From positions 62,001-126,000 of the forward strand of contig JAQWSK010000005.1 in NCBI GenBank assembly GCA_029243245.1: a stretch of DNA of 64,000 nucleotides, read 5' to 3'. Within the stretch, counting starts at the first letter, position 1. Each line of letters opens with the position of its first letter. The position numbers were made by a program, and so were the translations under genes. This document shows, piece by piece, positions 8,105-13,441 of this stretch. The DNA comes from Flavobacteriaceae bacterium (lineage in GTDB: Bacteria > Bacteroidota > Bacteroidia > Flavobacteriales > Flavobacteriaceae). The notes under the pieces were generated by a model. The model was not told the DNA's origin. It was given only the letters and a program-made list of their open reading frames with translations, and did not search any database.

Positions 8105-9425
8105 ACATTTTATTTTCACCTCCAAAGGTCTCAAAAATAATAACACTAAATACTATTAAATATTCCAAAATTAATATTAGTGGATACTCATTAACTTCAC
8201 TTGATGAATATGAAGCATATGATAAAAAAATAGTTGCACTCCATACTATCGGATAAAAGTAAGGAGTAAAAATGCATAAAGCTACTAATGAAACTATATA
8301 CCATGGGTGAACTGTAGTAGCAATAAAAAAATAGAAACTTAGAAGTAATAATTGATTTTTAAGTACTTGATTTAGACTATTATTTTTTTGTAAAAAAGTA
8401 AAAAACAATATACCTGACATCAATATAAACGGTGCTATTTTTCCAAATGTATTAATTATGTTATATCCTTTAAAATAAAAACCAATTTCTCGTATTATAT
8501 AATAAATACTGGCATTAAATTCAAAACGATTAAACCAGAGCTGTATAGTTTGAAGGTAATTCATATAAAAATTCTCATCCATATATGGTATCCACAATAA
8601 TGAAAAAAATGCAGTGATTAAGAAAAAGTAATATAGACTTTTTTTAAGTCCTAATTTTTTTAAAAATAATGGAATAAGTATTAAAGTAACAAGTTTTGAA
8701 CTTATTGAAAAAGCCATCATTATAGATGATTTTACAGTCCTATTTTGAAATAAAAATAAAACTCCTAAAAGAAAGAAAAATATCATAATTCCCTCACCAT
8801 GCAAATTTCCAGTTAATTCAATAATTACAAGCGGATTCAAAAAATACCAACCAATTCTATTTAAAGGCAATTTTAAAAAGTTTAATAATTTATAAAACAC
8901 ATAGAATGTGCCTAATTCAAAAAGAATTATAATTATTCTTAAAACAAGAACAGAATAATCCAAATTATTTTCACCAAAATATGATGCAATAATATAGCTC
9001 CATTGACTAATTGGAGGGTAATTTGAAAAATTACTATTTGATAGTTCTCCCATTCCGAAAAATAAATCATTGGCTAAGTAGAATAAATCATTCTTAATGA
9101 TTAAATCGTTAGGGGAGTATAAGTATGGATTTATGTTCATCAGTTGTAAGTTCCCATCCCAAAAAAATCTATAAAAATCTTGAGATAATTCAGGAAATGA
9201 TATAATTAAAACTAATCTGAAAATCACACCTAATGTCAAAATTATTAATGGTGTAATTCTTAGACACATTATTATTGTAAATAGTATAAAAAGAGAACCA
9301 TATGATATAAGTAAAGTATTTGTTTCTGTTCTTTCAACATAGTAACCAATAAACACATATAAAAGCAGAGATAAACCCGATGTAAGAACTAAAACCGCAT
9401 ATAAATATTTATTTTCTAACCTCAT
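8067..9425 (-). CDS. GT-C type polytopic glycosyltransferase (mannosyltransferase-like)
   Basis: A 452-residue integral membrane protein with about a dozen hydrophobic segments. The loop QDFYRFFWDGNLQLMNINPY (about residues 80-99) has the acidic, aromatic character of the first extracytoplasmic loop of GT-C enzymes that use polyprenyl-phosphate sugars, as in the MptA/MptB-like or GT87 groups. A second loop YPPISQW and a late HPWY fit too. Its ATG overlaps the end of the upstream GT2 by 4 bases, so the two are translationally coupled. The substrate cannot be read from sequence. Confidence 0.65.
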   Translation of the reverse strand: MRLENKYLYAVLVLTSGLSLLLYVFIGYYVERTETNTLLISYGSLFILFTIIMCLRITPLIILTLGVIFRLVLIISFPELSQDFYRFFWDGNLQLMNINPYLYSPNDLIIKNDLFYLANDLFFGMGELSNSNFSNYPPISQWSYIIASYFGENNLDYSVLVLRIIIILFELGTFYVFYKLLNFLKLPLNRIGWYFLNPLVIIELTGNLHGEGIMIFFFLLGVLFLFQNRTVKSSIMMAFSISSKLVTLILIPLFLKKLGLKKSLYYFFLITAFFSLLWIPYMDENFYMNYLQTIQLWFNRFEFNASIYYIIREIGFYFKGYNIINTFGKIAPFILMSGILFFTFLQKNNSLNQVLKNQLLLLSFYFFIATTVHPWYIVSLVALCIFTPYFYPIVWSATIFLSYASYSSSEVNEYPLILILEYLIVFSVIIFETFGGENKMFKAFAKNSTLSK

Positions 9426-10912
9426 TTAATTTTAATAAAAGATTTAATTGTCACAAAACCAAAACCTAAAAAAAGTAATAAGTGAAAAGGAAAAAAGCCA
9501 AAGTCTCCATTTTTACCGACATTAAATGCGCTATATAAACCAAATAAAAAATAAAGAGACATTAATGCCTCAATTAGAGTATAAAAACTTATCGACTTTT
9601 CAAGGTACCTATTTTTAATATGAGAATTTTTTTTATCACTCTCAATATTGAATTTTGGAGTTCTAATAAATGGACTTTTTATACCCAAATGGCCCTGTAT
9701 AACAGCAATAGAATTATGAGCCGAAAAAGCAATTGAAATAGAGTAAAAAGTAAGAAATCTTATAGTATAGTTAAAAATACTCAAAAGTCCAGATCCGTGC
9801 TTTTGCTTATGTAAAAACCAATAGAAAACGTAAAATATTAAAGTGCTTATTATAAAAAGAGAGCTCAAATTAAAGAACCAAGTAAGTTCAACCCATTTAT
9901 TTTTAATATAAAGCATAGGAACACTTAAAAATCCAACTAAAAAAATATTTAAAAACATAGTACTGTTTAATAGATGAAGTAAAGCGTGAACTTTAGTTTT
10001 AAGGTTGATTTTACTTGACTTTAAAACTTTATAAATATTTTTTTGAAAATTTTCAGCCCCACCCTTATTCCATCTAAACTGCTGAGAACGAATAGCACTT
10101 ATTACTATAGGTAATTCAGCTGGAGTAATAATTTTTTCTAAATAAATAAACTTCCAATCTTTAAGTTGAGCACGGTAGCTTATATCAAGATCTTCAGTTA
10201 TCGTGTCTCCTTCCCAATTTCCAGCATCAATTATTGTAGATTTTCTCCATACGCCTGCAGTGCCGTTAAAATTAATAAAATGATTTTTGGCATATCTTCC
10301 AACTTGTTCTAATGTGAAATGACCATCTAACCCAAAAGCTTGGACCTTTGTTAGAATTGAAAAATTTCGATTAATATATCCCCATCTAGTTTGAACCATT
10401 CCGACTTTTGTATTTTTAAAATAAGGAATAGTTTTAATTAAAAAATTTGGGTTAGGTACAAAATCAGAATCAAATATTGCAATAAATTCCCCTTTAGATT
10501 TTTTCAGTCCTTCTTTTAAAGCTCCAGCCTTAAAAGCTGTTCGTTTTTTTCTTTTTAAATGAACGATATTAATTCCATTTCTTTTAATTTTATCAATTAA
10601 CTTTTTAGTTAATTTGGATGAATCATCATCTGAATCATCAAGAACTTGAATCTCTAATTTCTTACAAGGATATTCAATTTTTTCTACTGTAAGTAATAGT
10701 CTTTCAATAACATATAATTCATTGTAAACTGGAAGTTGAATTGTTACAAAAGGAATTTCATCACTATTGTTAAAGTCCCATTTCATTAAATTTTTGGGTT
10801 TATTTTTTTCACCCAAATAATTAATTAACAAATTCAGTTGAGCCAAGGCATAAAAAAAAATAATAATTAAGCAACTTGAGTAGATAAAAATTAATCCAAG
10901 AATTAACAACAT
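9422..10912 (-). CDS. cellulose-synthase-like family 2 glycosyltransferase
   Basis: Membrane-bound GT2 enzyme, 496 residues. One N-terminal membrane helix is followed by a cytoplasmic GT-A domain with VTIQLPVYNE, VLDDSDDD, FDSDFVP, TEDLDISYRAQ and QQFRWNKGG, that is the D, D, D, QxxRW set of processive beta-glycosyltransferases. Several membrane helices then follow. It lacks a PilZ domain, so it resembles glucomannan/glycolipid synthases rather than bacterial BcsA. It sits between a small GT2 and a GT-C enzyme and probably builds a glycolipid or surface glycan with them. Confidence 0.8.
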   Translation of the reverse strand: MLLILGLIFIYSSCLIIIFFYALAQLNLLINYLGEKNKPKNLMKWDFNNSDEIPFVTIQLPVYNELYVIERLLLTVEKIEYPCKKLEIQVLDDSDDDSSKLTKKLIDKIKRNGINIVHLKRKKRTAFKAGALKEGLKKSKGEFIAIFDSDFVPNPNFLIKTIPYFKNTKVGMVQTRWGYINRNFSILTKVQAFGLDGHFTLEQVGRYAKNHFINFNGTAGVWRKSTIIDAGNWEGDTITEDLDISYRAQLKDWKFIYLEKIITPAELPIVISAIRSQQFRWNKGGAENFQKNIYKVLKSSKINLKTKVHALLHLLNSTMFLNIFLVGFLSVPMLYIKNKWVELTWFFNLSSLFIISTLIFYVFYWFLHKQKHGSGLLSIFNYTIRFLTFYSISIAFSAHNSIAVIQGHLGIKSPFIRTPKFNIESDKKNSHIKNRYLEKSISFYTLIEALMSLYFLFGLYSAFNVGKNGDFGFFPFHLLLFLGFGFVTIKSFIKIK

Positions 10913-10929
10913 TTGATTATAAAATTCAA

Positions 10930-11613
10930 TTAGTTTCTAAAATGATACATTAATATCCAACTTATTATTTTTATACTAGCTAAAACAGTTCCTTTTAAAG
11001 TTCCAGACACTTTTGAAAAGCCTATTCTTCTTCTATATTTTACAGGAACTTCGCAGTAAGATATCTTCCTCTTTAAAACCTTTAATTGCATCTCAACAGT
11101 CCATCCATATGTTTTATCTTTCATTTGTAAACTTTCCAATGTTTTCCATTTTATTGCTCTAAAAGGGCCTAAATCAGTGAAGTTACTTTTATATAAATGA
11201 CTCATTAAAAAGCAAGCTAGCTTATTTCCAAAAACCTGTTGGGGTGTCATAGAACCATATTTTCTTAGACTTTTAACCCTAGAACCAATTACAAAATCTA
11301 CTTTGTTTTGAAATATTGGCTCAATTATTTTAGTTATTTCTTCTGGATAATCCGAATAATCACCATCTATAAAAACAACTATATCTGGAGGGTTTTTTTT
11401 AAGAAAATCTATTCCTTTAAGACAAGCATATCCATACCCTTTTTTTTTTTCTATAATTACTGTAGCTCCATTCTTAAGAGCAATTTTTGAGGTTTCATCT
11501 GAAGATCCATTGTCAACGACTATTAAATCATGGTAAATTTTAGGTATAGATTTTATTACACTACCTATAGATTTTTCTTCATTTAAAGCAGGTATTATTA
11601 TAGACAATTTCAT
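10930..11613 (-). CDS. family 2 glycosyltransferase, polyprenyl-phosphate sugar synthase-like
   Basis: A soluble GT-A enzyme of 227 residues: LSIIIPALNEEKSIGSV at the N-terminus, VVDNGSSDETS, and VVFIDGDYSDYPEEI with a DxD-type metal site near 85. The segment GYGYACLKG and the overall size fit the dolichyl-phosphate mannose/glucose synthase group. Its product could be the lipid-linked donor for the GT-C enzyme two genes downstream (inference). Eleven consecutive Ts at 11440-11450 put an A11 run in its mRNA, a potential slippage site. Confidence 0.78.
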   Translation of the reverse strand: MKLSIIIPALNEEKSIGSVIKSIPKIYHDLIVVDNGSSDETSKIALKNGATVIIEKKKGYGYACLKGIDFLKKNPPDIVVFIDGDYSDYPEEITKIIEPIFQNKVDFVIGSRVKSLRKYGSMTPQQVFGNKLACFLMSHLYKSNFTDLGPFRAIKWKTLESLQMKDKTYGWTVEMQLKVLKRKISYCEVPVKYRRRIGFSKVSGTLKGTVLASIKIISWILMYHFRN

Positions 11614-11632
11614 AAGGCTTGTAAAAAACCAG

Positions 11633-12037
11633 TTACTTGATATTTAGCTCAATTTGTTGTTGTGGGACAATATATCTATCAAAATAAACACTTGAAAACT
11701 CATCTAATGTCAAAAACAGTGAAATAGAAATAATCAACACGATGACTCCAAATAAAACTTTATTGATTTTTTTTTGTTTTTCAGAATTCAAACTACAATC
11801 TTCTTTTTTATTATAACTTATTACTCCAATGATTACTATAAATAAGCCTAAAACTCTTAAAATAATTGCACCAATCCCTATTGACCCATCCTCAGCATAA
11901 AAAAAATCTGCAAATGAAATAGCATAAACACCACTCATTAGTCCAAATTGAAATAAAACTACAGGCCCTATACAACAAATTATTCCAGTTAAAGCGGCTG
12001 ATAAAGAAATTTTAATAAGGTGATAAGCTTTCCACAT
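11633..12037 (-). CDS. four-helix membrane protein with Cys-Cys pair, unknown
   Basis: I do not firmly recognise this 134-residue protein. It has about four hydrophobic segments. The first carries GIICCIGPVVL (about residues 18-28), a vicinal Cys pair followed by Pro, a feature also seen in the first helix of MerT-type metal transporters. A hydrophilic loop with KKEDCSLNSEKQKK holds another Cys. It lies between a DUF547 protein and a GT2 gene in the same orientation. A metal or thiol role is possible but unproven. Confidence 0.55.
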   Translation of the reverse strand: MWKAYHLIKISLSAALTGIICCIGPVVLFQFGLMSGVYAISFADFFYAEDGSIGIGAIILRVLGLFIVIIGVISYNKKEDCSLNSEKQKKINKVLFGVIVLIISISLFLTLDEFSSVYFDRYIVPQQQIELNIK

Positions 12038-12081
12038 TTCAATTAATTTTTGGATGTAAATAAATTAAATATAATATAATT

Positions 12082-12783
12082 CTATTGAATTATATTTAGA
12101 TTCCAATTGTATGGCAAATATTTAACTTTGCGATTATTAAATTTTATTGAAGAATGTTCTTCAATAAAATTTAATAAACTATTGGTATTACCAAAATCTT
12201 CTTTAAACCATAAAAATATTTTTGAAATCTCAATTTCATTTTCAATGATTTTATTTTTATTTGAATCCTTCAAAAAATGTTTAGTTGCATCTTCAAGTTG
12301 TTTCTCAAGTTTATTTGGCATGTAGGCTAAATTAGAAAGTTTTGGACAAGAAATAGAGGCACAGTTTATGGCAAAATGAATTCTTGGATCTTCCATTTTT
12401 CTTAAAATCTTGTGTTCTATTTCGTCTAATGAATAACTGCTTGAATCGTAATCTATTATTTTTTTACTCCATGGATCATTAATGTCCCTTATGCTACTTA
12501 AAGGAAAATTGTTTAAAATAAGTTTTATTGTCAATGCATTGTAAGCATTAATCCAATAAGTCATAATTTGGTTTTTGGTCCAGTGTTTTTTAGGATGATT
12601 TTTTTTAAGCACACTGATATATGCATTTAGTCCATTTGTGTTTTTACTCCAATTAATATAATCAACTTGGCCCTGATCATTCACATATTTATTTAGTTCA
12701 ATATTCCATCTTTCATGAATACTTCTTTGAGAGAAAAAGTTTAATGAAATAAAAATAAATAATATTATAAGTGGTGTTTTCAT
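12082..12783 (-). CDS. DUF547 domain protein, exported
   Basis: A 233-residue protein with a signal peptide (MKTPLIILFIFISLNFFSQ) and a DUF547 domain, recognisable by TYWINAYNALTIKLIL, SLDEIEHKILRK and the Cys-containing HFAINCASISCPKL. DUF547 is related in fold to transglutaminase-like proteins but its activity is not established. In other bacteria DUF547 genes often sit near TIGR04282-type transferases, as here (next gene upstream). The coding sequence contains a perfect long inverted repeat near its 3' end, described separately. Confidence 0.82.
   Translation of the reverse strand: MKTPLIILFIFISLNFFSQRSIHERWNIELNKYVNDQGQVDYINWSKNTNGLNAYISVLKKNHPKKHWTKNQIMTYWINAYNALTIKLILNNFPLSSIRDINDPWSKKIIDYDSSSYSLDEIEHKILRKMEDPRIHFAINCASISCPKLSNLAYMPNKLEKQLEDATKHFLKDSNKNKIIENEIEISKIFLWFKEDFGNTNSLLNFIEEHSSIKFNNRKVKYLPYNWNLNIIQ
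12134..12177. repeat. perfect 21-bp inverted repeat inside DUF547 gene
   Basis: Bases 12134-12154 are the exact reverse complement of 12157-12177, with only TG between them. The 44-bp element is fully inside the DUF547 coding region. Because of the symmetry both strands encode nearly the same peptide: LLNFIEEHSSIKFN in the gene and LLNFIEECSSIKFN on the opposite strand. The RNA would form a long AT-rich hairpin close to the stop codon. Confidence 0.95.
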
Positions 12784-12841
12784 ATTCTAATTTACGACTT
12801 AAATGTAAATTATTAAATTCATTATGTGAAGCTTGCTATTT

Positions 12842-13441
12842 TTAAATTAGAGCTTTCAAATCATTATGTTTATTTAAGTCTTCTTCAGTATCGATATCAT
12901 TCAATTCTTGAAGATAAAAAACAGTATTGTTATAATCAATCTCATTAACACTGTCTTCAAGTACTTTAGAAGTTCCCCATGAATTAATATTAAAAAGCGA
13001 ACTATTCATTTTTTTTAAACCTAATAAATAATAACCTCCATCTGAAGCTGGACCAAAAACAATATCATTATTTTTTAATGCATCAAATGTTTCTTGAAAA
13101 ATTTTTTTTTCTATACTCCAAAGGTCAGTTCCTACAATACAAATATTTTGATACCCCATTTCAAAACCCCATTTAAAAGCTTTATTCATTCGAGTGCCTA
13201 AATCTTTACCATTTTGAACTTTTTGCTGTTTGGCAAAGGACCAATTCTGATCGTGAGGAATAAAATCACTATAAAAAATAACAACATCAAACTCTACCTG
13301 TTTTAAAACTGAAATTGTTCTATCTACAAGAAGTTTATATATTCTTAGAGCTTTGAATTTTCCAATTGATTTTGCAAGTCTAGTTTTAACCTTTCCAATT
13401 AAAAAATTTTTACAAAAAACAATTATAAGAGCGTCGTTCAT
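12842..13441 (-). CDS. TIGR04282/DUF2064-type nucleotide-diphospho-sugar transferase-like
   Basis: A 199-residue single-domain protein with GT-A-like features: FCKNFLIGKVKTRLAKSIG at the N-terminus (a KTRLA substrate loop typical of this family), GTDLWSI near 107, and FGPASDGGYYLLGL near 132. The family is named for genes beside arsenosugar enzymes, but no ArsS or ArsM is in this window, so that role is not supported here. It lies 8 bases from the methyltransferase gene and 58 bases before DUF547. Confidence 0.75.
   Translation of the reverse strand: MNDALIIVFCKNFLIGKVKTRLAKSIGKFKALRIYKLLVDRTISVLKQVEFDVVIFYSDFIPHDQNWSFAKQQKVQNGKDLGTRMNKAFKWGFEMGYQNICIVGTDLWSIEKKIFQETFDALKNNDIVFGPASDGGYYLLGLKKMNSSLFNINSWGTSKVLEDSVNEIDYNNTVFYLQELNDIDTEEDLNKHNDLKALI

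Follow-up and report, generated by a model that had tools for sequence, protein, structure and literature searches.

The palindrome and its host gene

The 64,000-nt window (the whole stretch of DNA analysed) carries on its minus strand a gene for a protein of 233 amino acids (12082..12783). The gene was taken from the list of open reading frames and matched the Pfam profile PF04784 with an E-value of 6.4e-28. Its profile score of 97.7 bits, compared to a curated cut-off of 27, places it in the DUF547 family. The N-terminus of the protein resembles a signal sequence when judged by eye, and the signal sequence is regarded as putative. Profile matches identified the neighbouring genes, all encoded on the same strand, as a DUF2064/CofC-like nucleotidyltransferase (12842-13441) and two family-2 glycosyltransferases (10930-11613 and 9422-10912).

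Close to the 3' end of the DUF547 gene, approximately 50 nt ahead of its stop codon, two exact inverted arms of 21 nt each were found at positions 12134-12177. The next gene begins approximately 45 nt past this stop codon. The 44 nt have the order TTATTAAATTTTATTGAAGAA-TG-TTCTTCAATAAAATTTAATAA. In the sense of the gene, the upstream arm (12157..12177, minus strand, TTATTAAATTTTATTGAAGAA) encodes LLNFIEE, and the downstream arm (12134..12154, minus strand, TTCTTCAATAAAATTTAATAA) encodes the end of a histidine codon followed by SSIKFNN. The two-base centre (12155..12156) reads TG on the plus strand and CA on the minus strand and comprises the sole non-complementary positions. A preliminary description of this DNA had reported the same coordinates, 21-nt arms, two-base spacer and location within the DUF547 gene, all of which are exact in the sequence. 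Its wording of a "perfect 44-bp palindrome" holds for the arms, which are 100% complementary, but not for the central TG, which does not self-complement. Strictly, the feature is a near-palindrome.

The palindrome lies in frame and wholly inside the open reading frame of the DUF547 gene (offset 606 in the coding sequence, phase 0). As described before, the peptides read from the two strands are nearly identical: the gene strand gives LLNFIEEHSSIKFNN, the opposite strand LLNFIEECSSIKFNK. This similarity arises because the palindrome starts at a codon boundary and is not a separate finding.

Comparison with related species

One orthologue of the DUF547 gene was found in each of the six other genomes of the genus, with identities of 57-74%. 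This comparison is one of living sequences with one genome per species, and the nearest relative shows 74% protein identity. In all six congeners the homologous 44 nt occupy the same codon positions without a gap. All 21 positions are paired in this genome, whereas the congeners form 10-12 of the 21 pairs (the closest orthologue 11) and remoter relatives 3-9, although choosing palindromes by their perfection in one genome guarantees that orthologues appear less paired. The values of the congeners are close to the background for such a base composition, and the predicted folds of the relatives' homologous segments contain no long stem. An inverted repeat that is perfect here and imperfect in all six congeners is the pattern of a corrected quasi-palindrome. 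The simplest reading of the alignment would be that the palindrome arose in the species' own lineage, after the split from the nearest compared relative and without a change in length. Judged by the alignment, it is neither an insertion nor a conserved RNA element, because the congeners are ungapped and show only 10-12 of 21 pairs. An apparent second copy of the closest orthologue (L039, from an uncultured Flavobacteriaceae bacterium) was identical to it at the C-terminus.

The differences from the relatives were counted separately for the two halves of the palindrome, each consisting of one arm and one centre base. Compared to the closest orthologue, the downstream half exhibited differences at 9 of 22 positions and the upstream half at 4 of 22. 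The gene-wide nucleotide divergence of 19.5% corresponds to 4.3 expected differences per 22 nt, and the value of the downstream half falls at the 98th-99.6th percentile among 22-nt windows along the gene. Every arm site that differs from the closest orthologue now pairs with the other arm. The contrast is weaker with two other congeners (L012 and L013), for which 6 downstream and 5 upstream and 8 downstream and 5 upstream differences per 22 nt were counted, respectively. The downstream values of 6 and 8 correspond to the 41st-86th percentile and are not clearly above the rest of the gene. The downstream versus upstream counts of 9 versus 4 against the closest orthologue, and of 6 versus 5 and 8 versus 5 against the others, come from relatives too divergent to single out one event. 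L012 also has the upstream peptide LLNFIE (LLNFIEK there), and the phenylalanine of the downstream KF is unique among the sequences of the genus. Since the downstream half is more diverged, LLNFIE recurs in L012 and this phenylalanine is unique, the upstream arm is favoured, with moderate confidence, as the probable donor and the downstream arm as the one that was probably rewritten.

These comparisons also bear on a selected hairpin in RNA or DNA, for example an mRNA stem near the 3' end of the gene that would set transcript stability, processing or translation between the DUF547 gene and the next gene. The predicted structure is a stem of 20 bp with a 4-nt loop (-19.8 kcal/mol, z -9.4), and its position shortly ahead of the stop codon and the following gene fits such a role. 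However, the stem is not conserved in any of the six congeners, and no compensatory changes were observed. The arms do not co-vary across the relatives, a check suggested by the preliminary description, because the hairpin is present in one species only. No terminator-like site, that is a G+C-rich stem followed by a T run, was found in 11500-13000, by which an intrinsic terminator is ruled out. No Rfam family was found at the palindrome; the single match of this search, at chance level, was to a nematode snoRNA and lay away from it. Moreover, the stem is dominated by A and T and lies in translated sequence, where ribosomes are expected to unfold it. The earlier suggestion of an mRNA hairpin or of ribosome slowing is favoured only by the predicted fold and not by conservation, and we regard a selected hairpin as very unlikely.

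Chance expectation and other inverted repeats of the genome

The background was estimated from a sample of 459 kb, consisting of the window and 20 separate stretches (approximately 395 kb) of the same genome. Within this sample the palindrome at 12134-12177 is the longest perfect inverted repeat in coding sequence; the repeats of equal or greater length (27 and 21 bp) lie wholly or mostly between genes. By extrapolation from a third-order Markov model, approximately 4e-5 inverted repeats with arms of at least 21 nt and a loop of at most 12 nt are expected in 459 kb. When the genes were shuffled by codons with proteins and codon usage kept, an arm of 20 was reached in none of 20 rounds. Both results agree with the earlier statement that the match is far beyond chance.

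Independent substitutions might nevertheless have built up the palindrome by chance in an AT-rich coding segment with amino acids prone to self-complementarity. Random codings of the present peptide at the AT-rich codon usage indeed gave a mean of approximately 16 of 21 pairs, and all 21 pairs in 0.2% of the codings. Since much of the pairing comes from the peptide itself, the improbable step is which residues are present and not the synonymous choice only. In addition, the finding was picked from a large scan. Against this stand the expectation in the 459-kb sample, the codon-shuffled gene sets, and the probability that independent substitutions starting from three congener sequences lead to 21 of 21 pairs. 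This probability was 7e-12 to 1.3e-10, or roughly 1e-10 to 1e-12, in an F81-like approximation which starts from living sequences and not from ancestors. A chance origin is accordingly considered very unlikely.

The same low probability is given to an artefact of the assembly or the library, for example a fold-back chimera. The source assembly is a draft of 16 contigs with 90% completeness, which speaks for such an error. However, no reverse-complement continuation was found past the arms, the reading frame returns to the conserved VKYLPYNW-LN end, and the gene keeps the exact length of its orthologues.

Rickettsia palindromic elements occur within genes, and the palindrome likewise sits inside an open frame, but insertion of a mobile palindromic element of this type is extremely improbable and was ruled out by the unchanged length in the gapless orthologue alignment and by the single copy in the genome. 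Neither a second copy of the palindrome nor any other match to an arm with at most 2 mismatches was found in the genome. The next-best genome matches to one arm have 3 mismatches and occur at a rate little above that of a backwards-sequence control. An exact search of viral contigs with the palindrome core gave no match.

Similar palindromes elsewhere in the genome, a further check proposed in the preliminary description, were found in excess. The genes examined, 388 kb in total, contain 9 inverted repeats whose arms measure at least 12 nt, compared to 2.25 expected (maximum of 5 in 20 codon shuffles), and none in the genes of the 459-kb sample is as long as the one described here. Mirror repeats, which served as a control for low complexity, numbered 0 in the same 388 kb compared to 2.85 expected. 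The modest excess of coding inverted repeats without an excess of mirror repeats points to a general mutational process. It hints that template switching measurably enriches the genes of a small marine genome in inverted repeats. Over-representation of inverted repeats has already been reported for many bacterial genomes (PMC4060949). Other coding inverted repeats that were checked (four repeats in three genes, one of them recN-like by eye) are mostly imperfect in the congeners, a comparison that is biased by the selection on perfection.

A coding inverted repeat with 16-bp arms and a 10-nt loop lies in a gene for a protein of 722 amino acids (L074:16567-16608, and L086). In the congener G005 it differs at only 2 of 42 positions and keeps 15 of 16 pairs, though the gene is 29% divergent; in the nearer congener G003 only 10 of 16 pairs are formed. 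The near-identity in G005 may stem from local recombination, from retention or from a parallel switch. Among the intergenic repeats, a perfect palindrome of 54 bp with 27-nt arms and no loop (L061:816-869, AATTTATAAATAAAAAAACCTTCCATATATGGAAGG...) resembles a bidirectional terminator. Two further perfect intergenic palindromes, with arms of 20 nt (L065:11779-11818) and 16 nt (L072:10830-10862), have no long T run.

Probable origin of the palindrome by template switching

The palindrome is likely to be the scar of a template-switch mutation, also called quasi-palindrome correction, in the lineage of this species. Such an origin had been proposed in the preliminary description. Three observations support it: pairing is low in the six ungapped congeners, the downstream arm shows excess divergence relative to the closest orthologue, and coding inverted repeats, unlike mirror repeats, are over-represented in the genome sample. 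From these sequences we infer that there was a single event, that it ran from the upstream to the downstream arm, and that the nascent strand folded back on itself instead of switching to the sister strand.

In the proposed mechanism the nascent strand, with the upstream arm already copied, would fold back where a short complementarity already existed, probably a core resembling GAAGAACATTC. The congeners L012 and L013 have ATTGAA...TTCAAT, which folds in prediction, 3 nt out of register with the palindrome. The upstream arm would then serve the polymerase as template for approximately 17-20 nt, after which synthesis would rejoin the normal template at AATAAT, which is common to both paths. 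In this way the downstream arm would be rewritten in register and without a change in length. The DUF547 C-terminus is variable in the segment where the few resulting amino acid changes lie, and these would have been tolerated. The four unpaired loop bases of the predicted fold would suit an intramolecular hairpin, and a sister-strand switch is equally compatible.

Most likely the palindrome is a tolerated mutation without a role. It would be a natural and unusually long example in which one step alters numerous adjacent bases and several amino acids, and substitution models can mistake such a clustered change for selection. It is unlikely that selection later retained the hairpin as a regulatory structure specific to this lineage within coding sequence, or that template switching is unusually frequent in this small-genomed marine Flavobacteriaceae lineage, with the palindrome as its most visible product. 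The class of mutation is already known; this case is long but otherwise ordinary, and it reveals no new mechanism.

Quasi-palindrome mutation by template switching, following the Ripley model, has been documented in E. coli with lacZ reporters and at thyA hotspots (PMC7202029). As in that system, an imperfect inverted repeat in a bacterial gene would have become perfect through clustered changes which all raise complementarity. In contrast to E. coli, the event is deduced here from a comparison of species and was not seen as a new mutation, and the arms are 21 nt long. In coding genes of Saccharomyces cerevisiae, template switches have caused multinucleotide changes with arms of mostly 7-11 bp and a maximum of 16 (PMC8604942). 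The in-frame homogenisation of the arms with adjacent amino acid replacements is common to both cases, whereas the yeast events were polarised on a dense phylogeny of strains and the present one, of 21 bp, is found in one species with sparse relatives. The mitochondria of Nematomorpha contain numerous coding palindromes of up to 284 bp, some of them at identical locations in all four species, and template switching has been suggested as one possible cause (PMC6649704). These are likewise perfect inverted repeats within genes with both arms coding, whereas the palindrome described here is single, short and species-specific.
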